A DNA stretch of 24,089 nucleotides from a virus: positions 1-24,089 of IMG/VR virus record IMGVR_UViG_3300026881_000003; one strand, 5' to 3'. Each line of letters begins with the position of its first letter. The stretch's first letter is position 1. The notes below the pieces were generated by a model. It searched no databases, had not been told where the DNA came from, and worked only from the letters and a program-made list of their open reading frames with translations. Shown here piece by piece: positions 7,257 through 20,315 of this stretch. The translations under genes and the position numbers were made by a program.

Positions 7257-10200
7257 TTGGCCGACAAAACCCCCAACATGCAAGTTTTCATCACGTTCGA
7301 CGGCGATGGGATCGGGAAACTGGTCGGTCGCGCCGAGCTGGAAGACCAGCCGGACAAGATCCGCAAGATTTCTCAGCAAATCGACGCCGGAAACGAGATT
7401 TTCCGCTCGTGGTGCGAGCGTACGCAGGGCGAGGTCATCAACATCGGTGGTGACGAGGGTCGTATCGCCATCGATCCTAAGCACCTGTCCGAATTGCCCG
7501 GTCTTTGTGAGACCTACGAGAGCGCCTCGGGCGCCACCGTGTCTATCGGTGTAGGTATGAAGTTGTCGGATAGCGCCAAGGCCCTCCTGGTAGCCAAGCT
7601 GCGCGGGAAGAATCGCATTGTGATGTACACCCCCGACCTGGAGCCCGAGATCAAGGCTGCGGTGGAGGCCCACGAGAAGCAGTCGGTCGGTTCCAAGGAA
7701 GTTGAGGAGTACCTGAAGTTCGAGAAGGCCGAAGAGCAGGCCCAGCCCGCTCCCCAGGCTGGTGACCACGAGGAGCCTATCCAGGCGGTCGCCCCGAAGG
7801 ACGAGAAGTCGTTCGAGGACCACTTCCACGACCACGCCCAGGCGCAGGCCACTGGCACCCGTCACGAATCCGCGATCAAGCACGGCATTATGACGGCGCT
7901 CCAGACCGTCAAGCAGTTCATGCCCCAGATCGAGGAGCTGAAGCAGCAGCGCCCCGAGGTCTATCAGACCATTCAGCTTATCAGCCAGGAGCTGATCGCC
8001 GTCGCCCACGATATCTTCGGCAAGCCCGAGGCCTCGCAGCCCAAAGCAGAGGGTTTTGACCCCAAGTTCCAACCGCCCCCGAAGGAGGAACCGGCCGAAG
8101 AGCCAGCCCCAAAAGCGGTGGCGAAGAGCGAGCAGCCTAGTCCAGAATCTCAGGGCTACACTTTCAAGGTGTCACACGGTCCCGACTACACGACCGTAGG
8201 TGCGTTTCATCCGGATGAATATGCCAGGTCCGGCGATGATCGCGTTGGCTCGGTGAACTTCTCGCACATGCCTGACGGCTCCCTCGTGTCGGATGACACC
8301 TGGGTTCACGAACGTCACCAGCGCAAGGGCATTGCTCGCCATATGTACAGCCTGGCAGCGAAGGAGACGGGCAAGGAAATCCAGCCATCTACCCTCCGCA
8401 CTCAACAGGGCGCAGCGTTTTGGACTGGAAAGAGCGAGGGTCTAGCGAAGGGGTCGTTGCAGCGTAAGCTGCCCTACAACCCCCAGGCAGCTAAGGCTGC
8501 GATGGGTGGAGATCTCAAGCACGCCGACTCCTGGGTTGCTGGTGGGACTAAGAACGCTGACCGTGGATACTTTCCCCGCATGGAAGGCCACGAGCGCCAG
8601 CGAGCCCTAAACAAACTGACTGCAGCCACCAAGACCCGTCGCAACCACGCAGGCGAGGTCGAATTCCTCCTCCACCGTGGCATGGGCAGGCAGGAGTACA
8701 AGTCATCGGTCGGGCAGACGCACGTTGACCAGCCCCAGGAAACTTCCTGGACCCCGAGATACATGACTGCCAAGAATTTCGGCGAGCAGTACGCCGAGAT
8801 GCAGCATCCGCCCATGGTGGCGTCAGCCTGGATTCCCGAGAAGCACATCCACGCCATCCCCAAGCAGCTCGGAAGCGTTGACCCCAAGGATCCCGTCGGA
8901 ATGGCTCGTCACACTCTGGAGCACGAGGTCATCGTGGCTCCCCACACCTCAGAACTTGCCCAGAAGGGTCGCGACTTCCCCGCCACCCGCCTGGCCGATA
9001 TCCACGGTCGCATCAATGAGGCGGGCAAGCGCGACCAGATGCTTCGCGAGCTACCGAACCCCAAACATCCTGATGTGGGAGGTGCGCGAGTCGGTTTCCT
9101 AAAGGACCGCATGCAGCACGTCCAGAAGGCTGAGCTGAATCTCACTCCTCCAGTGCATCCGCCCCAGCTTCACAACACCGTCGAAGGCTTCATGGGCGGC
9201 CTCAAGGCGATCCCTAAGGGGACCCCGGCACGCGGCAAGTTCATCACCCAGCACATGAATCACGGCCCGTTCTTGACGGCGCTGAAGGCACATCCGCAGG
9301 GAGCCCAGGTTCACGCGATGCTCACGCAGCACCTGAACAGCGCGGCCAACGCCGGATTCAAGCCGGGCCAGGGTGTAGTAGCGGTGGCGAAGTCCGAAGA
9401 AATCGACACATCAAAAGCAAAGGATTGTCCAAAGGAACTGATCGGTGAACTGCTCGGGAACAAAGTGTACTTGGTCGATGGCTCGTTCATCCGCGACAAC
9501 GTGGATATCGAATACACTGAGGGCGGTAACCATGGTCGATACTCTTGGGTCCCTGAGAACGAAATCTGGCTGGAAAATTCTCATAATTCAATGGACGTAT
9601 CGGCTTGTGCCCTACATGAGCTTCTAGAATCCAAACTGATGTCCCGTGGCATGTCGTATGACGACGCACACACCCGCGCGTCTGCGATGGAGAAGAAGTT
9701 CCGCACCTCCTGCTCCGAGGCCGACGAGGTATCCTTGGCCCAGGCCGGAGCCTGGTTCCAGGAGCATGCCGAGCCTGAGGACAAGGAGATGAAGAAGGCG
9801 GAGCCGCTGATGGTCCCCATGAAGCACATCCGTCCTGATCCCAAGAACCTCGCCGAAGCCCATGACAACATCCGTCGAGGGAGGGGGAGTGTCACCGAGG
9901 GGCCCGTCGTCCTCTACCGCCGCAAGGGCAAGAAGGGCTACGAGCTAGGCAACGGTCACCATCGCTTCGTTGAGGCTCAGAACCGAGGGGAGACGCACAT
10001 CCACGCCACGGTGAGCCCCGATGTTCTCGACAAGTCCGAGCCCGTGAAGAAGACCGCCACCGTTCAGTCCGGCGAGGCAGAGTCCGTCGGCTCGCAGACC
10101 TTTGGCCTGGCCGAGAAGGCCCCCGAGTCCAAGCCCATGAAGAAGAAGTTCGGCCTGCCTGGTAGTCGTACACGCAACCTCAAGTTCCTCCCGGGTGCCA

Positions 10201-10328
10201 TCAAAGACGGGAAGATCAAGGTCATCGAGCCCGATACCGGCAAGCCCTCCTGGAAGGGTGTGCGTTCGGGCATGGTCCGCAGCAACGATGATCACCCCAT
10301 CTCCAGCCGCGAGCCCGAGGGGAAGTAA
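7257..10328 (+). CDS. polyvalent multidomain effector-like protein (palm cyclase, GNAT, ART, HExxE, ParB)
   Basis: 1023 residues from a TTG start with GGAG 7 bases upstream; ATG at residue 8 is an alternative. Domains by eye: (a) 9-128, cyclase/polymerase palm with DGDGIG at 15-20, GGDE at 64-67 and a TVSIGVG...AKLRGKNRIVMY ending, most like mCpol/Cas10; (b) helical linker 130-290; (c) GNAT-like 300-395 with VHERHQRKGIARHMY at 350-364; (d) ADP-ribosyltransferase-like 465-565 with R474, T496-S497 and E555-x-E557; (e) 725-820 with H787-E-L-L-E791 and H805; (f) ParB/Srx-like 850-920 with GNGHHRFVEA at 898-907; (g) basic tail. K-[A/S]-E triplets at 157, 263, 290, 392, 624, 712, 847 and 926 bracket the domains. 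This matches the 'polyvalent protein' concept of phage proteins delivered with DNA. It sits in the structural block. Gene boundaries are sure; the domain calls vary in strength. Confidence 0.8.
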   Translation: MADKTPNMQVFITFDGDGIGKLVGRAELEDQPDKIRKISQQIDAGNEIFRSWCERTQGEVINIGGDEGRIAIDPKHLSELPGLCETYESASGATVSIGVGMKLSDSAKALLVAKLRGKNRIVMYTPDLEPEIKAAVEAHEKQSVGSKEVEEYLKFEKAEEQAQPAPQAGDHEEPIQAVAPKDEKSFEDHFHDHAQAQATGTRHESAIKHGIMTALQTVKQFMPQIEELKQQRPEVYQTIQLISQELIAVAHDIFGKPEASQPKAEGFDPKFQPPPKEEPAEEPAPKAVAKSEQPSPESQGYTFKVSHGPDYTTVGAFHPDEYARSGDDRVGSVNFSHMPDGSLVSDDTWVHERHQRKGIARHMYSLAAKETGKEIQPSTLRTQQGAAFWTGKSEGLAKGSLQRKLPYNPQAAKAAMGGDLKHADSWVAGGTKNADRGYFPRMEGHERQRALNKLTAATKTRRNHAGEVEFLLHRGMGRQEYKSSVGQTHVDQPQETSWTPRYMTAKNFGEQYAEMQHPPMVASAWIPEKHIHAIPKQLGSVDPKDPVGMARHTLEHEVIVAPHTSELAQKGRDFPATRLADIHGRINEAGKRDQMLRELPNPKHPDVGGARVGFLKDRMQHVQKAELNLTPPVHPPQLHNTVEGFMGGLKAIPKGTPARGKFITQHMNHGPFLTALKAHPQGAQVHAMLTQHLNSAANAGFKPGQGVVAVAKSEEIDTSKAKDCPKELIGELLGNKVYLVDGSFIRDNVDIEYTEGGNHGRYSWVPENEIWLENSHNSMDVSACALHELLESKLMSRGMSYDDAHTRASAMEKKFRTSCSEADEVSLAQAGAWFQEHAEPEDKEMKKAEPLMVPMKHIRPDPKNLAEAHDNIRRGRGSVTEGPVVLYRRKGKKGYELGNGHHRFVEAQNRGETHIHATVSPDVLDKSEPVKKTATVQSGEAESVGSQTFGLAEKAPESKPMKKKFGLPGSRTRNLKFLPGAIKDGKIKVIEPDTGKPSWKGVRSGMVRSNDDHPISSREPEGK

Positions 10329-11522: not shown

Positions 11523-12506
11523 ATGGCGTTCCTCCCCAGCGTTCTACCTCCCACTGAAGCTCTTGGCGTCCAGCAGGGCGCCTTGATCATCAAGTCCTTC
11601 CTGGACCTTAGCTTTGCTGCACTTCGCGGTGAGCATAGCTGGGCCTTGGACTATATTTTTAAAAACGTAGAATACGATCTGGCCACCAACTCGACCAATC
11701 CGGCTGTGAACGCAGGCCCCTACGGTAAGTCCTGGGCAGAGCAGGCCAAGAAGTGGTTCCTGAGCACCGATATTCCGGTTTACTGGAACGTAGCGCTTGA
11801 GTCGGACGGGCCGCCCATGATCACCCTGGCCCTCCTGAACGCGCAGCAGCAGTACGAGACCCTCGGCGACATCCACTACAATCCGACTGAGACCGTCAAT
11901 CTGCCCCCGCAGGCCGTGACCGAGCCCTTTACGCCCGTGTCCTTCGATCCCGCAACAGGCACGATGGTTCTCCCGGACTCGCTGGCCAACGCCTACATCT
12001 TCGCAGGTACCATGGCGGTGAAGACCGCCTCCGGCAACCAGTACCCGATCTTCGCTGTCATCGACGGCGGCCTGGAGCTGGCCGACGGTATCAACGACGA
12101 CTTCACCAATTGCACGGTCATTCAGCCCAACCCTAACGGACTGCTGACCCTCGAATCGACCAGGATGAAGGAGACGTATGGCATCATGCTACACGTCATC
12201 TCCGAGCCCTGGCATCTGATCGTCCTCGACTCCATCGTCGCCTTCTGTCTCATGGCCTTCAAGGAAGACCTCCTGGAAGGTCGTGGATTCGAGATGTCCA
12301 GCTTCACCAAGTCGGACTTCAGCAAGAACTTCGCTGATGTTGAGGCCCGCTATCAGCGCTCCTACACCCTGGAAGGTTACACGCAGATCCGCTACCCCAA
12401 GCTTCGCGTGAAGGCCCTCGCGGGTGTGGTCCCCCAGATCCTCATTTCGGACGGTGGCACTCCCGCAGAGCCCCTCGGCCCGAACTACGCCGGGGTTAAG
12501 CCGTGA
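11523..12506 (+). CDS. probable neck or tail structural protein (327 aa)
   Basis: 327 residues, not assigned to a family. An N-terminal helical region (IIKSFLDLSFAALRG), a strand-rich middle (about 85-210, with TFTPVSFDPATGTMVLP-like strands) and a later segment LHVISEPWHLIVLDSIVAFC then FKEDLLEGRGFEMSSF (about 222-262) look like tail-terminator or neck proteins of myoviruses. I treat this as weak shape evidence. The stop shares bases with the GTG of the fibre gene (GTGA), so the two are co-translated. No Lys-Ala-Glu linker motifs occur in it. Confidence 0.65.
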   Translation: MAFLPSVLPPTEALGVQQGALIIKSFLDLSFAALRGEHSWALDYIFKNVEYDLATNSTNPAVNAGPYGKSWAEQAKKWFLSTDIPVYWNVALESDGPPMITLALLNAQQQYETLGDIHYNPTETVNLPPQAVTEPFTPVSFDPATGTMVLPDSLANAYIFAGTMAVKTASGNQYPIFAVIDGGLELADGINDDFTNCTVIQPNPNGLLTLESTRMKETYGIMLHVISEPWHLIVLDSIVAFCLMAFKEDLLEGRGFEMSSFTKSDFSKNFADVEARYQRSYTLEGYTQIRYPKLRVKALAGVVPQILISDGGTPAEPLGPNYAGVKP

Positions 12507-14803
12507 GCGTAATCAACACCGACGACCTCCTGTGGACTATGGATGGTCGCCCCAATCCGGGGCAAACCTCGCTACCCACGCTTCAGGCTGTTGGAGCTAC
12601 AGGAACGGAAGAGGTGCCGACCCCGACCGCTGTCACCGTCTCGCCGGCCGTGACGACTGCAGATAGTTATGGCACCGTAGCCTACACCGCGACGGTCACT
12701 GGTACGGGAACCCCAACCCTGGCCTGGAGTGATGGGGGAGCAGGCGGCATCTTCACTCCGCCCTTCGGCGCTACGACCTCCTATAGGGCTCCGAACGGTC
12801 CTGCGAGCGTCACCATCAAGTGCACTCCGTCTTCGGGGACCGCAGGTATTGCAGCTTTGCAGGTCGCAGCATCATTTTACTTCGACCTCAACTTCGCCAC
12901 CGCCAACCTGACCCCGGGCTATTATTCGTCTGTCTCCGACGCTCACGGCAACACCTTCTCGGTGGTGCGTGCCCTCGGCTACAACAGCACCCCGAGTTAC
13001 GTGAAGTTGGGGAACGGTACGCTGCGTGTTTGCCCAGCCAATACTGTGAGGGTTGAGCAGAATGGATTTCTTATCGATGTGTCGAATCAGTATTGGTACG
13101 ACTGCCTCAACCTCAACTCGTTCTTCACCTTCACGGGCTGCAGTGCGGCGGACCACACCGCCCAGTCGCCCGTCGAAGGTACGGATATTACCGCTTCGGT
13201 GGTCACGCTCTCTGGCACGTCAGCTCACTACGTGCGATTCAACTTCAGCCAGGCCGCCTCTTACGTTGGTGCCTGGATCTGCACCTTTGCGAAGTACACG
13301 GCCGGCGGGCCGAAGTGGATCACTATCTCGGAGAGCACTAGCTTCGCGAAGTGGGCGACCTTCGATATCGAACATGGCCTGGTAGGTAACAGCAGTGCCG
13401 ATATAGACGGATGTTTTGGGCGTATCGAAGCTTATGGCAATGGCTTCTATCGCTGCATGGCTTTCATCCCTGGCATCATCACCCCGCTTACCGACGTAAA
13501 GGGCGTCATCGCCTTCGCGGACAGTCAGGTCGATGCCACGCCGGTCGCTGGTGTTCTTCCGTCCTGGACGGGCAGCGGTACTGTCACCATCTGGGGCTCT
13601 ACCTGGGAAGTGAACAATCCGGGCGGTACAGGCCTCCTTCTGTATCCAGGGCGTCCAGCCATCTCCAACGGCTTCGCGCCTGCCAATGCAGGCGGCGACT
13701 ATTTCACATTTACCATCCCAGCAGCCTTTGCATCAGACATTAACGATCAGGCAGCCTATTCGGGATTGTGCACTGCCCGCTCTGTTTCCGACAACCAATA
13801 CTCGACGTTCAGAACGTCGATGTCTTGGGGGGCGTTCAATGCCAACGACTCCATTTACTGCAGAGGAACATTCTCTAGCGTCAATATGGCAGTCTACAAC
13901 CATACGGGTGGTCACAGCCTAGTGACAACGGGCGGCTTGGGCGAAAGTGCGGCAAGCAATCTCGGTCCGGGTTACCACTCCCTCACTGGTTTCAGCGGGG
14001 CTGACGGCTCGGCCGCCGTATATAGCGATGGGATCTTTATCCCCCTGCAGAGTGGCGGTGCGCCTGGCGTCAACAAGGTGTCGGTCGCCCCTGCAACTCT
14101 CAATACCATCGACTCTTTCGGACAAGGCACCTGGCTTACGCGCTGGAATGCCGGGCCCAACCACAACGCTGTTTTGGATGGTTCATCGTCTACCGATGCA
14201 GGGACTGGATTCAGAGTAGCCGTCCTCGGCGACAACAACAGCAATGCCTCGGGGACTTACGTCCCGTGGCCGATGCTGTTGCAGGCGCGCACCTGGACCA
14301 CGACTCCGCGCGCCTACTACGACTTCGCACACGAGGCTGGTGTCTCGGACAACGCCGCAGTTATCTGGTCTACCTGGATTGCAGGAAAGGGATTCACCCA
14401 TCTGACTTCGCAGCTTGGCATGGTCAACGTTCTTTTTAGCGATCAGGTAGAGTCCTGGATCACCTCCAATACCGCTGCGACGATCTGGGCTGATATTCAG
14501 GCGCTCTGGGACAATGCCCGAGCCGCAGGCATTACCGTATATCCGCAGACCCTTTTTGGGGCCGGGCAGTCTGCGCTATGGACTTCTGCCAAGACCACAA
14601 TGCTTAATGCTATCAACGCAAGTATCACGGCTTACGCCTCTTTGCACGGTCTAACCCTGCTTGACCTCTACACTTTGATAACCGATCCCGGCAGCCCGCC
14701 AAACGTGAACCCACTCTATTTGAATGGCCCGACTGACGACAACATAAACTCGCTTGGTCATATGACCATCGCGAACTACATCAAGACCACATTGGGTATC
14801 TAA
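12503..14803 (+). CDS. tail fibre or spike with Ig-like domain and decayed SGNH-like end
   Basis: 766 residues from GTG at 12503. After a 40-residue lead, residues 41-122 look like a bacterial Ig-like domain (PTAVTVSPAVTTADSYGTVA...). Then follow two or more jelly-roll/carbohydrate-binding-like regions rich in Gly, Ser, Thr and aromatic residues (about 125-380 and 390-560). Residues 571-766 read like an SGNH/GDSL hydrolase: block I appears as VLGDNNSN (576-578 G-D-N), block III as VLFSDQ (about 643-648), block V as DNIN...GH (746-753). The catalytic Ser, block III Asn-Asp and final His are all changed, so activity is doubtful; a sugar-binding role is more likely. The composition (no Lys-rich linkers) fits a host-contact protein. 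Confidence 0.8.
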   Translation: MSVINTDDLLWTMDGRPNPGQTSLPTLQAVGATGTEEVPTPTAVTVSPAVTTADSYGTVAYTATVTGTGTPTLAWSDGGAGGIFTPPFGATTSYRAPNGPASVTIKCTPSSGTAGIAALQVAASFYFDLNFATANLTPGYYSSVSDAHGNTFSVVRALGYNSTPSYVKLGNGTLRVCPANTVRVEQNGFLIDVSNQYWYDCLNLNSFFTFTGCSAADHTAQSPVEGTDITASVVTLSGTSAHYVRFNFSQAASYVGAWICTFAKYTAGGPKWITISESTSFAKWATFDIEHGLVGNSSADIDGCFGRIEAYGNGFYRCMAFIPGIITPLTDVKGVIAFADSQVDATPVAGVLPSWTGSGTVTIWGSTWEVNNPGGTGLLLYPGRPAISNGFAPANAGGDYFTFTIPAAFASDINDQAAYSGLCTARSVSDNQYSTFRTSMSWGAFNANDSIYCRGTFSSVNMAVYNHTGGHSLVTTGGLGESAASNLGPGYHSLTGFSGADGSAAVYSDGIFIPLQSGGAPGVNKVSVAPATLNTIDSFGQGTWLTRWNAGPNHNAVLDGSSSTDAGTGFRVAVLGDNNSNASGTYVPWPMLLQARTWTTTPRAYYDFAHEAGVSDNAAVIWSTWIAGKGFTHLTSQLGMVNVLFSDQVESWITSNTAATIWADIQALWDNARAAGITVYPQTLFGAGQSALWTSAKTTMLNAINASITAYASLHGLTLLDLYTLITDPGSPPNVNPLYLNGPTDDNINSLGHMTIANYIKTTLGI

Positions 14804-14849: not shown

Positions 14850-17753
14850 GTGAGCGACTACACTATTGCTGAAGTTCAGGCCCTTCTTGACGAGAAGATC
14901 AAGGGCGCCGTAGATACCTTCGTTCAGAAGCTGGTCGAGCTGCGTCAGCGCGAACTCTCCAAGGCGGAAGGCATCCACGAAGAACCCGGCACGCACGAGG
15001 CTGGTGAAATGGGTGTTCAGCCCCACACCGAGCCCGGCCAGCACGAGCAGTTTGCAATCAGTCGCGTACAGCACGAAGCACCGAATCCGGTAGGCAGCGC
15101 CCAGGAGCCCGTCGAGGCAGACGCCGAGAAGCACCACATGCCCGACCTGTGCCCGATCTGCCACCAGGAAGACGTTCCCGGTTCCTGCACCTGCCTCAAT
15201 GAGATGGCGAAGGCAGAGCTGGAGAAGGGAAACTGTTCCTATCCTGCCTGTGGCGCCCCCACGAAGGGGACCTTCTGCGGCACGCACTCTGGCAAGAAGC
15301 CCGTCCAGAAGGCTACCGACGAGGATGGTTTCCCGGTAGGCGCCAAAGTCTCCGGCGAAGAGCGCAAGGCCGCCCGCGAGAAGACTCTCAAGGAAATTCA
15401 GGCACCCAAGCCGGCTCCCACGACCAAGGCAGAAGCCAACCGTCAGATGGAGAAGTCCATCGTTCTCTCCGAGGAGAAGGACCCGAAGAAGGCTCGTGAG
15501 CACAAGCGCCTCCGCACCAAGGGCGAGTTTGGCGAGGCTCACAAGATCAAAGAGAAGGCACCCTCCAGGCTCGCCAGCAAAAAGAAGAACCTCCGCAAGG
15601 AAATGGGCATCGGCGAAAGCGTTGTCGGTAATGGTCCCCAGGTGATCCCCGAGGGCCCCAACGAAGGCGTGTCCTCTAACCTGATGTCTAGCGAGAAGGG
15701 TGAGCTTCCGGTCGGTAAGATCGCATCCAAGCCTCCGGCGGAAGATGCCAACAGCGGTCCGGCCAAGAAGGTCGCCAAGGCAGAGCCCCTGGCCAAGCCC
15801 AGCGTCTCTGGCAAGCAGCACCGCGCCATGGAAGCCGCTAAGCACGGCCACAGCACCCTCGGTATTCCGAAGGATGTGGGCGCTGACTTCGTCGCGGCCG
15901 ACAAGGGCAAGCACTTCGATAAGTCCGCAGGCGTCAACCCGGTTGGCGGCGGCTCTCAGAATTCAAATTCGCGTAGCGACATGGGCAATGCAGGCAGCCC
16001 GGTCAGCGGCGTACCAAGTAATGGTGGTGAAATCATGGCTAACAGTGAAAAGATGGAAAAGCCCGTAGGCAAGCCCCTTTGCAAGCTTTGCAAGAGCGCG
16101 ATGTGCAAGTGCAGCATGGGCAAGGCCGAAGAAAAGCACGAGCACGTGGCAGACCCGTCTAAGGCTGGCACTATCAATCACTACGATCAGTATCCTTCTG
16201 AGGGTAGAACTACCAAGCTCGAACGCTGCAAGTGTGGCGCAGAGCGCAAGGCTGGTGGTGACTGGAAGCCAAACCCGATTAAGAAGGGCGAGACCTTCAA
16301 CGAGACCGGCGCTAAGGCCGCTTCTGAAGTTGAGCACCAGGACGAGGTCGGCGAGGTTTCTGGCCGTGGCCCCCTGGACAAGAAGCCCGAAGAGATGTCC
16401 ACCGATAGCGTAGGAAACGACGCAGAAGAGTCGTCTTCCCCCATCGGCGGTCACGACGCACCGGATCGCGGTCACGAGGAGAAGCCGGACATGAAGGTAG
16501 ACATCAAGGACCCGGCCCCGGGCATCGAATGGAAGAAGTCTGAGGGCGGCAGCATGTACGGAATGGTAGGCCAGCACCGCTACCGTATTTCCAAGGCAGG
16601 CGATGGTTTCGTTGTTTACCACAACGGTAATCGCATCAGCGAGATGGCGAAGTCTGAAGACGCACTCTTTAAGGCCAACGAGCACTTTGCCCGTCGCGCC
16701 GTGATCGAGAAGGCGTTCTACAAGCACCTGAGCCCGATGGTTGGTCGTGGCCCTGGTTACGGTCCGGGTAAGTTCCCTGAGCTGCAGCCGAAGCCGACGA
16801 CTAAGCCTGCCGAAGTGACGAAGTTCCCGGCCAAGGCCAGCAGTCTGAAGGCTCCGTCGCACCCCGAGAAGAAGTCTGAGCCCAGCCCGCTGGACGAGAC
16901 CAAGCCCGAGGTAGCAGCTCCCGCAGCGAAGACTGAGGCATCAGGCGTTCCCGACAAGAAGGGTGAGGCCAAGAACCCCGGTATCGTGGGCACCAAGCTC
17001 GCAGGCGGCAAGTCTGCTGGCGTAGTTGGCACCCCGAAGCTGTCCGGCGAGAAGGCTCCTGCTGAAGTCTCTGGCGTTCCCCAGAAGGCTGGCAAGAACG
17101 GCGCAGAGCCCTCAGGTACTCCCGACAAGAAGGGCGAGGGCAAGAACCCTGGCATCGTCGGCACCAAGCTGGGCAAGGACGAGGTCGCAGGCGTTCCCCA
17201 GAAGTCTGGTCCCGTGGTGAAGGAAGTGGCAGGCGTTCCTCAGAAGAACGGCCCCGTGGTGAAGGAAGTAGCTAGCGTGCCCCAGAAGAACGGCCCGGTC
17301 GTCAAGGAAGTGGCGGGCGTTCCTCAGAAGTCGGGCAAGCTGGGCAAGGGCCTCCTCCCGATGTCCGCGACCAAGCAGGCCGCAGCAGCCTCGAACAACA
17401 TGAGCGGTCCCCACAACGATATCGGTGGCGCCATCTCGGCTCCCCCGGGCATGAAGAAGGGGCTTCCTGGCAAGGGCAAGCTCCCGGCCGTAGCCCCGAA
17501 GCAGCCTCCCGTACACGCGGGCGGTATGACCGGCGCAGCGAAGATCGGTGCAGTGGCAGCCCAGCCTATCGCCCCGATGGCAGCTAAGCCCGGTATGAGC
17601 CTCAAGGCTCCGGCTCACCCGGCGCCGGCAGCCCCGGTCCATCAGATGACTAACGCCAAGCGCGCAGGCGGCACAGGTGCGCTCCTTGGTAAATCCGAAC
17701 TTGGCAACTGCCTCCTCTGCTCTAAGGCAGAACACGCAGGTGCCTGCAACTAA
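14850..17753 (+). CDS. repeat-rich, Cys-cluster, probably disordered structural-block protein (967 aa)
   Basis: 967 residues from GTG at 14850, chosen because GGAG lies 8 bases upstream. Rich in Lys, Ala, Pro, Gly and Glu, mostly disordered. Islands of probable zinc-binding Cys occur at C101/C104/C113/C115, C129/C134/C143/H146, C411/C414/C419/C421, C460/C462, and at the very end C954-x2-C957-x4-H962-x3-C966, one residue short of a classic zinc knuckle. A small folded segment lies at about 566-622 (YGMVGQHRYRISKAGDGFVV...). Ten K-[A/S]-E triplets (38, 121, 193, 310, 425, 563, 601, 675, 948, 959) recall the polyvalent protein. Residues 698-835 hold two kinds of tandem repeat. It lies between fibre and sheath genes. 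Function unknown; virion-internal or DNA-binding roles are possible. Confidence 0.75.
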   Translation: MSDYTIAEVQALLDEKIKGAVDTFVQKLVELRQRELSKAEGIHEEPGTHEAGEMGVQPHTEPGQHEQFAISRVQHEAPNPVGSAQEPVEADAEKHHMPDLCPICHQEDVPGSCTCLNEMAKAELEKGNCSYPACGAPTKGTFCGTHSGKKPVQKATDEDGFPVGAKVSGEERKAAREKTLKEIQAPKPAPTTKAEANRQMEKSIVLSEEKDPKKAREHKRLRTKGEFGEAHKIKEKAPSRLASKKKNLRKEMGIGESVVGNGPQVIPEGPNEGVSSNLMSSEKGELPVGKIASKPPAEDANSGPAKKVAKAEPLAKPSVSGKQHRAMEAAKHGHSTLGIPKDVGADFVAADKGKHFDKSAGVNPVGGGSQNSNSRSDMGNAGSPVSGVPSNGGEIMANSEKMEKPVGKPLCKLCKSAMCKCSMGKAEEKHEHVADPSKAGTINHYDQYPSEGRTTKLERCKCGAERKAGGDWKPNPIKKGETFNETGAKAASEVEHQDEVGEVSGRGPLDKKPEEMSTDSVGNDAEESSSPIGGHDAPDRGHEEKPDMKVDIKDPAPGIEWKKSEGGSMYGMVGQHRYRISKAGDGFVVYHNGNRISEMAKSEDALFKANEHFARRAVIEKAFYKHLSPMVGRGPGYGPGKFPELQPKPTTKPAEVTKFPAKASSLKAPSHPEKKSEPSPLDETKPEVAAPAAKTEASGVPDKKGEAKNPGIVGTKLAGGKSAGVVGTPKLSGEKAPAEVSGVPQKAGKNGAEPSGTPDKKGEGKNPGIVGTKLGKDEVAGVPQKSGPVVKEVAGVPQKNGPVVKEVASVPQKNGPVVKEVAGVPQKSGKLGKGLLPMSATKQAAAASNNMSGPHNDIGGAISAPPGMKKGLPGKGKLPAVAPKQPPVHAGGMTGAAKIGAVAAQPIAPMAAKPGMSLKAPAHPAPAAPVHQMTNAKRAGGTGALLGKSELGNCLLCSKAEHAGACN
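16941..17180 (+). repeat. duplicated 23-residue coding repeat
   Basis: Residues 698-720 (SGVPDKKGEAKNPGIVGTKL plus three) and 755-777 (SGTPDKKGEGKNPGIVGTKL plus three) of the 967-residue protein are near copies, 57 residues apart. Related GTPKL and SGVPQK pieces lie between them. This indicates expansion by internal duplication. Confidence 0.8.
17187..17354 (+). repeat. 14-residue (42-base) tandem repeat, about 3.5 copies
   Basis: Unit AGVPQKSGPVVKEV at residues 780-793, then AGVPQKNGPVVKEV (794-807), ASVPQKNGPVVKEV (808-821) and a partial AGVPQKSGKLGKG (822 on). Copies differ at synonymous positions as well as at a few residues, so the array is not newly made. Confidence 0.85.
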
Positions 17754-17783: not shown

Positions 17784-20315
17784 ATGGCCCAGTCTTTTAC
17801 TAACACGAACGGCACCTTTGTCATTCCGGGCGCTTACCCGTCGCTGCAGATCCAGTCTGTGCAGAGCGGCCTTTCGTCCACTGGCGTTGTGCTGATCATG
17901 GGCGAGGCCGATTCCGGCCCCGACTACAGCCAGGAAACTGACCTGAGCCTGAACCTCTTCGGTCCAGACCAGGCCCAGAGCGTTGTGGCCAAGTACACCT
18001 CCGGCCAGATCGTAGACGCCTTCCTCGCAGCAGCCAATCCCTCGAACGACCCCCTGATCACTGGCAGCCCCAGCGCCATCCTGGTCGTCAAGACCAACCC
18101 CTCGACCAAGGCCAGCGCAGCCGTTCTTGATACCAACAGCGCAGCCTACGCTACCCTGGACGCGAAGTCTGGCGGCGCACTCGGCAACCTGATCTACTTT
18201 AACGTGACCCAGATCTCGCCGCAGGTTGCTCCTTCTGTTGGTCCCTTTACCTGGATCCCGAACGTTGGCGCGGTCAGCTACCAGTTCAACCTCTCTGGTG
18301 GCGCAATCCAGGCCCCCTCGGCTCTCAGCGCTGGCACGACCCCCGCTTCTCTGGTTTCGACTATCACCGCACTGGCTGCTGGCCTGACCGCGACTGGTGG
18401 TACGGACCGTGGCATCGTGATCATCGCTGGCAGCCTGGCAACGGCAGCTCCGGGTGGCAACGTAATCACCGTGACTCGCACGATCAACTGGACGGTTCTC
18501 CCGGTTATCGGTGACACCCTCAATATCAGCGCAACGTCCGTAATCGCAGGCGCAGGCAATGCGAACGTGGGTGGCTATGTGGTTACCGGCGTGACCGCGA
18601 ACAGCGTGACCGCAACCAAGCTCTCGGACGCAAACAAGCCGGGCGCAGTGGTTGGCGTGATTACTGCTCCGGTGGTCGTGGCCTCGACTCCCATCGCATC
18701 CACCACTGCTGACGTTCAGTCCTTCTCGCCCGTGACCATCGCGTTCACCTCGAACGCGGTAGTGGACGGTAAAGGTCTGAGCCTTGAGTTTGCGAACAAG
18801 ACCAACATCTCGGGTGACAGCTTTTCGGCTAACGCCTATCAGCTCAGCACCACTCCGGTGACCTGGGTTTCTACCAGCTCGACCCCGGTTCTCGTGGTCT
18901 CCTCGTCCGAACTTGAGGTGAGCCTGAATGACGCACGTCAGATCGACGCGGTCAGCGAGGACGCAATCGCTGGCGGTGAAATCGGCCTGAAGATCAGCGT
19001 GAATGGCACGGGCGTGACTGCGGCCACTGTGACCGTGTCCTCGTCCACCATCACCACCAGCGTGACCGGCGGCTCCGTAGCAGCCCTGACCGTCCCCTTC
19101 GCTCACTTCCAGAGCCTGGCGGACGTAGCACAGTACATCAACAGCCAGACCGGTTACTCGGCCTCGCTGGGTACCGCAGTTCTCGGCTCGCTCCCCGGCA
19201 CCGCTCTCGACCAGGGTACCTTCAACATCCTGTCGGTGAATGGCGCACAGAACGGCCGCATTAAGACTGACGCCTACCGCATGAACCAGGCAGTGGCGGC
19301 CACCGCTCTCGTGGCATTTGCTACCGCCCCGACTGCAGGTCTCCCGCTCGTCAACGCCAACTTCACCTACCTCTCCGGTGGTGCACGCGGCGCAACCACG
19401 AACGCAATCATCCAGGCAGCGCTCAATGCCTGCCAGGCTGTGAACTGCAACTTCGTGGTTCCGCTGTTCAGCCAGGATGCATCGCAGGATATCGTTCTTG
19501 GCGATACCGACCCCAGCTCGACCTACACCATCGCAGCGATCAACGCGGCAGTTAAGAGCCACGTGCTGCAGATGTCTACGGTCAAGCGTCGCAAGAACCG
19601 CCAGGGTGTTGTTTCGGTCCGCGACTCGTTCGTGAATGACCAGACCAGCGCAGCAAATCTCGCATCGTATCGCGTGGCTTGCACCTTCCAGGACGTGAAG
19701 AGCCAGGATTCGTTCGGTAACATCACCCAGCAGCAGCCGTGGATGGGCGCAGTGCTCGCCGCCGCTGACCAGGCAGCAGGGTTCTACCGCTCGATCACCC
19801 ACAAGTTCATCAACTGCTCCGGCATCGTTGACGCTTCGGGTGACTTCTCGGACCAGAACGATACCCAGGTTGCAGAAGCACTGCAGGCTGGCCTCCTCCC
19901 GATCCGCCGCAGCCAGACCGGTGGTTTCTACTTCGTGTCTGACCAGACGACCTGGGGCCGCGATAACAACTTCTACTACAACTCTCTGCAGGCTGTGTAC
20001 ACGGCAGACATCATTGCCCTGACCACCGCCCTCCGCATGGAGAACCAGTTCGTCGGCGGTTCCACCGCAGACATCTCGGCAGCAGTCGCCCTGACCTACC
20101 TCGACGGTATCATGGCCGACTTCCGCCGCCTGAAGCTCATCAGTCCCTCCGATGACGCTCCGGCAGGCTTCAAGAACGCTGTGATCCAGATCACCGGCAC
20201 CGCGATGATCGTAAGCCTTGAGATCAAGTTGACCGGCACCATCTACTTCATCCCGATCAACTTCCTCGTCAGCCAGGTTCAGCAGACCGCCTCGCAGCCG
20301 AGCACCACGTTCTAA
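17784..20315 (+). CDS. contractile tail sheath protein
   Basis: Forms the contractile outer tube that drives the tail tube into the host. 843 residues; ATG with AGGAG 8 bases upstream. The N-terminal part (about 1-145) has the sheath-type start FVIPGAYPSLQIQS, GVVLIMGEADSGP and SAILVVKTNPSTKASA. The C-terminal part (about 530-843) has FVVPLFSQDASQDI, the FYFVSDQTTWGRDNNFYYNS segment and a final domain with ADFRRLKLISPSDDAPAG and KLTGTIYFIPINFLVSQV, typical of sheath C-terminal arms. About 380 residues between, Thr/Val/Ser-rich and beta-like, form an enlarged outer insertion; sheaths are often 400-650 residues. It is followed directly by the tube gene, the expected order. Confidence 0.92.
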   Translation: MAQSFTNTNGTFVIPGAYPSLQIQSVQSGLSSTGVVLIMGEADSGPDYSQETDLSLNLFGPDQAQSVVAKYTSGQIVDAFLAAANPSNDPLITGSPSAILVVKTNPSTKASAAVLDTNSAAYATLDAKSGGALGNLIYFNVTQISPQVAPSVGPFTWIPNVGAVSYQFNLSGGAIQAPSALSAGTTPASLVSTITALAAGLTATGGTDRGIVIIAGSLATAAPGGNVITVTRTINWTVLPVIGDTLNISATSVIAGAGNANVGGYVVTGVTANSVTATKLSDANKPGAVVGVITAPVVVASTPIASTTADVQSFSPVTIAFTSNAVVDGKGLSLEFANKTNISGDSFSANAYQLSTTPVTWVSTSSTPVLVVSSSELEVSLNDARQIDAVSEDAIAGGEIGLKISVNGTGVTAATVTVSSSTITTSVTGGSVAALTVPFAHFQSLADVAQYINSQTGYSASLGTAVLGSLPGTALDQGTFNILSVNGAQNGRIKTDAYRMNQAVAATALVAFATAPTAGLPLVNANFTYLSGGARGATTNAIIQAALNACQAVNCNFVVPLFSQDASQDIVLGDTDPSSTYTIAAINAAVKSHVLQMSTVKRRKNRQGVVSVRDSFVNDQTSAANLASYRVACTFQDVKSQDSFGNITQQQPWMGAVLAAADQAAGFYRSITHKFINCSGIVDASGDFSDQNDTQVAEALQAGLLPIRRSQTGGFYFVSDQTTWGRDNNFYYNSLQAVYTADIIALTTALRMENQFVGGSTADISAAVALTYLDGIMADFRRLKLISPSDDAPAGFKNAVIQITGTAMIVSLEIKLTGTIYFIPINFLVSQVQQTASQPSTTF

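Follow-up and report, generated by a model that had tools for sequence, protein, structure and literature searches.

P0001, a protein of 967 residues, is encoded just ahead of the tail sheath gene in a 24-kb virus record (IMGVR_UViG_3300026881_000003, positions 1 to 24,089; hereafter the window), a fragment of an Mx1-like soil myophage with an SPO1-type head that is kin to Myxococcus phage Mx1. Its gene starts with a GTG at 14850, with GGAG 8 nt upstream. The gene order around P0001 is that of Mx1, namely an mCpol-type protein (mCpol being the minimal CRISPR polymerase domain), connector-like genes, a P0001-type protein, sheath and tube. The Mx1 counterpart, WNM70344 (559 residues), occupies the same place, has a similar N-terminal leader and at its C-terminus also has [LF]-G-K-S-E-L ahead of a Cys cluster. 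Outside the N-terminus the two proteins align poorly, and their pairwise alignment was not used for positions. Here we consider a short motif that P0001 shares with a polyvalent protein of the window and with head proteins of related phages, and suggest that P0001 is probably cargo of the phage head.

The motif and the architecture of P0001

The first-pass annotation had drawn attention to ten K-[A/S]-E triplets in P0001, shared with the polyvalent protein, and its length, coordinates and triplet count all prove correct: the triplets at K38, K121, K193, K310, K425, K563, K601, K675, K948 and K959 exceed the 1.9 expected 5-fold (0/5000 shuffles). The more informative form of this enriched motif is φ-x-K-[A/S]-E, where φ stands for L, I, V, M or F two places ahead of K. 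It fits six of the ten triplets (K38, K121, K310, K425, K601 and K948), 18-fold more than the 0.33 expected (0/5000 shuffles), and only 0.29 are expected when shuffling is confined to 60-residue blocks. The permuted controls φ.R[AS]E, φ.E[AS]K, φ.K[AS]D, KE[AS] and [AS]KE are at or under expectation. The four triplets that lack φ (K193, K563, K675 and K959) probably lie outside the motif class, and K959 is a coincidence, since homologues have KPE, NAE, KNE or IPE there rather than K[AS]E. Within the window the φ-containing form is exclusive to P0001 and the polyvalent protein, with six copies in each and none in the 16 other proteins examined, which bears out the sharing. The triplets had further been placed beside Cys clusters and a folded segment; this holds for K121, K425 and K948, which adjoin Cys clusters (the first two come after one), but K601 lies inside the folded segment and K959 inside the C-terminal knuckle. 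In homologues of P0001, Cys is enriched 10-fold seven residues after the motif K.

An AlphaFold model built from 14 sequences contains three islands, the leader helix, the folded segment and the C-terminal knuckle, in a protein that is mostly disordered (758/967 residues with a predicted local distance difference test score, pLDDT, below 50). K38 closes the leader helix, which can be aligned in several homologues and ends ELxK-A-[ED] in five of them. The knuckle is exactly the C-x2-C-x4-H-x3-C described earlier as close to a zinc knuckle, and at least seven homologues keep it as C-x2-C-x3-E-H-x-G-x-C. The retroviral-type CCHC zinc knuckle is C-x2-C-x4-H-x4-C; the P0001 knuckle resembles it in its C-x2-C-x4 start and its shortness, whereas H-x3-C is one residue shorter, so that the CCHC spacing is not kept, and the other conserved residues (E before H, G after) differ. 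No family match was found for the knuckle, which, with its four ligand positions conserved, we regard as a putative metal-binding, zinc-knuckle-like element. The folded segment gave weak structural matches in the PDB, none of them confident (best Z 5.2, the methane monooxygenase inhibitory subunit, followed by actin capping protein). The phrog_16759 module also stands at the very start of gp44 of Shewanella phage QDWS, and 38 residues of this module were all that matched in a P0001 protein search of a phage collection. The corresponding search of IMG/VR returned one contig only, self-overlapping with the window.

Table 1. Features of P0001 and of two other genes of the window (↓, candidate cut).
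Feature	Position	Strand	Basis
P0001, 967 aa, directly 5' of tail sheath gene	14850..17753	+	translation; synteny with Mx1
Leader helix at N-terminus, residues 1-38, up to first candidate site RELSK↓AEG	14850..14963	+	AlphaFold helix 6-39, pLDDT 82-95
Motif L-S-K-A-E (K38)	14955..14969	+	motif scan
Cys cluster 1, CPICHQEDVPGSCTC, residues 101-115	15150..15194	+	C-x2-C-xn-C-x-C module, also in homologues
Motif M-A-K-A-E (K121)	15204..15218	+	motif scan
Cys/His cluster 2, CSYPACGAPTKGTFCGTH, residues 129-146	15234..15287	+	sequence
Motif V-A-K-A-E (K310), 7 residues ahead of phrog_16759 module	15771..15785	+	motif scan
phrog_16759 module, residues 317-359	15798..15926	+	PHROG match
Cys cluster 3, CKLCKSAMCKC, residues 411-421, 4 residues ahead of K425	16080..16112	+	sequence
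Motif M-G-K-A-E (K425)	16116..16130	+	motif scan
Sole folded segment, residues about 556-626, four strands and a helix	16515..16727	+	AlphaFold, pLDDT mostly ~78-88
Motif M-A-K-S-E (K601), strand-helix turn within folded segment	16644..16658	+	motif scan; AlphaFold
Degenerate [AS][GS]VPQK-x-G repeats, five copies, last four at 14-residue spacing	17070..17336	+	sequence
Motif L-G-K-S-E (K948), immediately ahead of C-terminal knuckle	17685..17699	+	motif scan
C-terminal knuckle C-x2-C-x4-H-x3-C, C954-C966	17709..17747	+	sequence; AlphaFold locally confident
Polyvalent protein (mCpol, GNAT-like, further regions); sites K157, 290, 624, 712, 847, 926	7257..10328	+	domain matches; motif scan
Tail sheath; no φ-x-K-[A/S]-E (control)	17784..20315	+	PF04984 weak match; 49% identity to Mx1 sheath

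Distribution of the motif among head and tail proteins

Relatives of the window phage were found with the tail sheath as anchor: a scan for viral contigs bearing the Mx1 major capsid protein (MCP) returned none, whereas searching the sheath-bearing genomes for the MCP succeeded. Open reading frames of the relatives were called mechanically, so that some short or overlapping genes were missed. Phylogeny is not taken into account in the shuffles behind the expected counts, and the relatives are partly non-independent; contrasts between head and tail are unaffected by kinship because they are made within single genomes. In Mx1 the head module contains 16 copies of φ-x-K-[A/S]-E against 1.4 expected (11-fold), the tail proteins none, and all other proteins 5 against 5.0 expected. 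The long relatives G001 and G005 behave alike, with 10 (1.6 expected) and 11 (2.3 expected) copies in the head, 0 and 0 in the tails and near-chance numbers elsewhere. The motif is densest in scaffolds, with 45 copies against 2.1 expected in those encoded 5' of the MCP in 15 relatives (maximum 6 in 500 shuffles) and 20 against 1.5 in ten scaffolds reached via protease loci, two sets that share some phages. In portals it occupies an aligned position near the C-terminus (25 copies in 30 portals, 3.5 expected). Numbering from the cut considered below, position-specific counts favour L, M, I or V at P3 (also T in cargo), K at P1, S or A at P1' and E at P2'. A leader helix followed by a site recurs in scaffolds and in some cargo proteins. 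A shared N-terminal targeting motif in these leaders, [YF][TS]xx[ED][VIM], was dropped, as it occurs in 3/16 scaffolds and 3/43 cargo proteins.

Instead of being head cargo, P0001 might belong to the tail or neck or be tape-measure-like, as its gene immediately precedes that of the sheath in the window, in Mx1 and in most relatives. However, the ~25,600 residues of tail proteins in the three genomes contain no φ-x-K-[A/S]-E, the P0001 model is not a long coiled coil, and the domains of its homologues fit cargo, so that we consider a tail function unlikely. Many homologues bear an N-terminal DUF3293/S-AdoMet-lyase-like domain (L010, L012, L014, L019, L022, L023, L038 and L039 at residues ~32-126); such a domain also lies at residues 291-380 of L006:37603-39282, and one homologue has an L5 gp82-like domain. 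P0001 has neither, and its family seems to carry small modules that can be exchanged. By their sequence these domains suggest a role against host defence, and the DUF3293/S-AdoMet-lyase-like domain might have anti-restriction activity.

The first-pass annotation had envisaged one processing or linker system serving a class of virion proteins, to be sought among the neighbours of sheath genes. The concentration in the head module, with sites in scaffold and portal and a related site in MCP and protease, speaks strongly for such a system, although the motif is probably a cut site within linkers and not the linker itself; and the search did reveal the motif in head proteins of Mx1 and two relatives, but the tails have none and the class is not one of sheath neighbours generally.

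Head-module multidomain proteins carry ART-PolyVal, PBECR, GNAT, NUDIX, kinase and ParB domains, and none of the 78 strict sites in 28 such proteins falls inside a Pfam or PHROG match (12.2 expected; 0/20000), while 23/78 lie no more than 35 residues from a domain boundary (8.6 expected; 1/20000). A site comes after the mCpol domain in several proteins, for example right behind it at K130 (domain end 117, L197); others lie right behind ADP-ribosyltransferase domains (K313, end 305; K476, end 469) or right ahead of NUDIX domains (K53, start 58; K1952, start 1961).

The proposed scissile bond and protease

Around residue 14, nearly all MCPs of the group have L-x-K-A-[LM]-[ED] (L-N-K-A-I in one class). 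A copy of this N-terminal arm, K-A-L-x-A-G...A-P-x-x-L-x-G-G-A-A-L-Q, stands just behind the catalytic domain of the group's protease, as an MCP-arm copy also does in SPO1 and Twort (proteases L151-L196, with L149 and L150), and perhaps the protease co-assembles with the shell. The Staphylococcus-phage homologue of the MCP is present in the PDB with 463 residues (5lii) and with 439 residues (9row, 9rox, 9roz); the 9row chain equals 5lii minus its first 24 residues and begins at Ser25 after Lys24, VVK↓SFQTGYG, which aligns with LVK↓ALEAG of this group. The scaffolds of SPO1 and Twort are rich in φ.KS (11 against 0.7 and 7 against 0.9 expected). The group's protease, modelled from 34 sequences (mean pLDDT 84), has herpesvirus assemblins as its best PDB matches (top four with probabilities 0.96-1.00 and E 1.2e-3 to 1.5e-2) and keeps the H of N-x-x-H and the S of S-[IV]-x-G invariant; an assemblin-type protease is thus found in the phage group, in relatives outside the window, and probably it is this assemblin-fold head-maturation protease that would read the site. 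The sequence form φ-x-K↓[S/A] is present in scaffold, portal and cargo and, without E, in MCP and protease. Taken together, the MCP and protease sites, the SPO1 and Twort scaffolds, the start of the 9row chain and the assemblin-like protease point to a cut between K and A/S.

We put at roughly three in four the probability that φ-x-K-[A/S]-E is a recognition site of the prohead protease, most probably cut between K and [A/S], and that P0001 is the precursor of an internal head cargo. In this scenario P0001, in which disordered, site-bearing linkers join a leader helix, short Cys/His (zinc-knuckle-like) modules, the phrog_16759 module and a single small folded domain, would be built into the prohead as it assembles and be cleaved at K38, K121, K310, K425 and K948, or at a subset of these, when the same protease cuts the scaffold, the portal and the N-terminus of the capsid protein. 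K601 is doubtful as a site because it sits inside the folded segment, and judging from the model it is possibly left uncut. The pieces would remain in the head with the DNA and later enter the host on ejection; the domains of the neighbouring polyvalent protein, released one from another, would do likewise. From sequence we infer here that cutting occurs, exactly which bond is broken in this clade, that the protein is in the virion, that its pieces are ejected and what they do.

Several observations weigh against this proposal. Protease, scaffold and capsid genes are absent from the window, and those analysed come from relatives. The N-terminus of 9row was taken from the deposited chain sequence and not from N-terminal sequencing, and the assemblin match has borderline E-values (best 1.2e-3) and low template modelling (TM) scores of 0.3-0.4. 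At P2' the sites of MCP and protease have no E, implying that E is non-essential or that the cargo site is a variant. Domain coverage is understated, because the domain test took the best stretch per Pfam family only. One motif copy, K601, lies in a folded segment; the number of sites differs among P0001 homologues, some having none; and in some the knuckle is kept beside a degenerate site (e.g. KKMEY in L022).

The same kind of protease could instead cut after Glu, as in T4 and by the A-x-E rule of SPN3US, whose gp245 cuts C-terminal to A-X-E (PMC10052503). The motif as defined always has the Glu, which is favoured after K-[A/S], and the K-A-L-E of Mx1-group MCPs contains A-x-E. However, when aligned on E the sites disagree (K-[AS]-E versus A-L-E), whereas they agree, including the hydrophobic P3, when aligned on K-[A/S]. 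Moreover, the deposited mature Staphylococcus-phage MCP begins at Ser after Lys in the homologous place, and the SPO1 and Twort scaffold sites keep φ-x-K-S, mostly without E. A cut after Glu therefore appears improbable. It is also conceivable that the motif serves, uncut, as a tag for docking or encapsidation by binding to scaffold, shell or protease. Such a tag would explain the restriction to head proteins and the position in linkers equally well, and the recurrence of leader helix plus site is in its favour, but it accounts neither for the resemblance to the MCP arm, trimmed exactly at K↓S in the homologue, nor for the sites beside domain boundaries, making it quite improbable. That the motif merely arises in uncut flexible spacers rich in K, A, S, E and P is scarcely credible, disordered as P0001 is: linker-only shuffles in 60-residue blocks predict 2.9 sites where 50 are seen (18 of the 28 proteins), permuted motifs show no excess, and residue order, hydrophobic P3, K, then [A/S], then E are all needed, which largely refutes this explanation.

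Known systems and possible effectors

The closest parallel to a protease site at φ-x-K↓[A/S] lies in the Herelleviridae (SPO1, Twort and the Staphylococcus phage), which share with this group a homologous portal and MCP (PHROG 12, PHROG 752), the gene order portal-protease-scaffold-MCP, φ-x-K-[S/A] sites in scaffold, MCP and protease, and the MCP-arm copy in the protease. They differ in that the site here usually goes on with E, and in that sites here also occur across large multidomain cargo, which was not seen in the regions of SPO1 and Twort examined.

T4 has internal head proteins that its prohead protease cuts ahead of ejection. The same applies to P1 DarA and to SPN3US gp53 and gp54, of which gp53 has several cut sites, those of SPN3US following A-x-E (PMC10052503, PMC12810830), unlike the φ-x-K-[A/S]-E found here. 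Nearly all known cuts in these P1, SPN3US and T4 proteins remove N-terminal propeptides, whereas the sites described here divide domains along the chain. Polyvalent proteins are multidomain proteins predicted to be injected with the DNA, and their release has been proposed to occur via embedded peptidases, mostly of the zincin-like type and occasionally assemblin-like ones at the C-terminus (Iyer et al. 2017, PMC5512222). The proteins considered here are likewise multidomain head-module proteins, but their release signal would be a repeated site for a separate head-maturation protease. P0001 itself has no Pfam match, only phrog_16759, and thus neither a recognised polyvalent domain nor the two or more polyvalent or effector domains of such proteins. 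In the open literature we found no account of a prohead protease cutting polyvalent proteins between domains, which is no proof of absence. Thus, internal head proteins cut in the prohead and polyvalent proteins are both known, while inter-domain cutting at repeated sites of the head-maturation protease, as we infer it, was not found described.

An appealing extension, to which we give even odds, is that this myophage clade stores its injected effectors as head-packaged polyproteins in which one site both separates effector domains and marks proteins for entry into the head. If so, all injected proteins of host takeover, with an mCpol nucleotide cyclase and S-adenosylmethionine (SAM)-lyase-like domains among them, could be read from a genome by the site alone. 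If cutting takes place as proposed above, large multidomain cargo would become separate injectable effectors via the protease that matures the capsid and not only via embedded peptidases, and a sequence rule would be at hand to predict packaged proteins in uncultured phages.

The mCpol domain opens the polyvalent protein (residues 1-124, window 7257-7628) as a match that passes its cut-off (E 2e-12), while the GNAT match is under its cut-off. Proteins that open with mCpol are also encoded at L122:8399-10645 (-), L206:5142-9320 and L197:4112-7384 (-). D-G-D and G-G-D-E are kept in the window and L122 and G-D-E in L206, and they are lost in L197 and Mx1. In the bacterial Panoptes defence, mCpol produces the cyclic dinucleotide (PMC12657230, PMC12657218), and on this analogy one may speculate that an injected mCpol copy might silence that defence.

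A literature search found no paper on Mx1. The contig L004 (IMGVR_UViG_3300026983_000066) is near-identical to the window (6 mismatches in 6722 bases), overlaps it from 17368 and extends ~5.9 kb beyond. Between a connector-like gene and P0001, the window encodes a 766-residue protein (12503-14803) with a GDSL-lipase-like C-terminal match (E 1.6e-4); Mx1 lacks a counterpart of this protein in the same position. The head module of Mx1 encodes a GGDEF-domain protein (PF00990, E 1e-9; L006:17173-17904, Mx1 WNM70324) between its protease and its scaffold.

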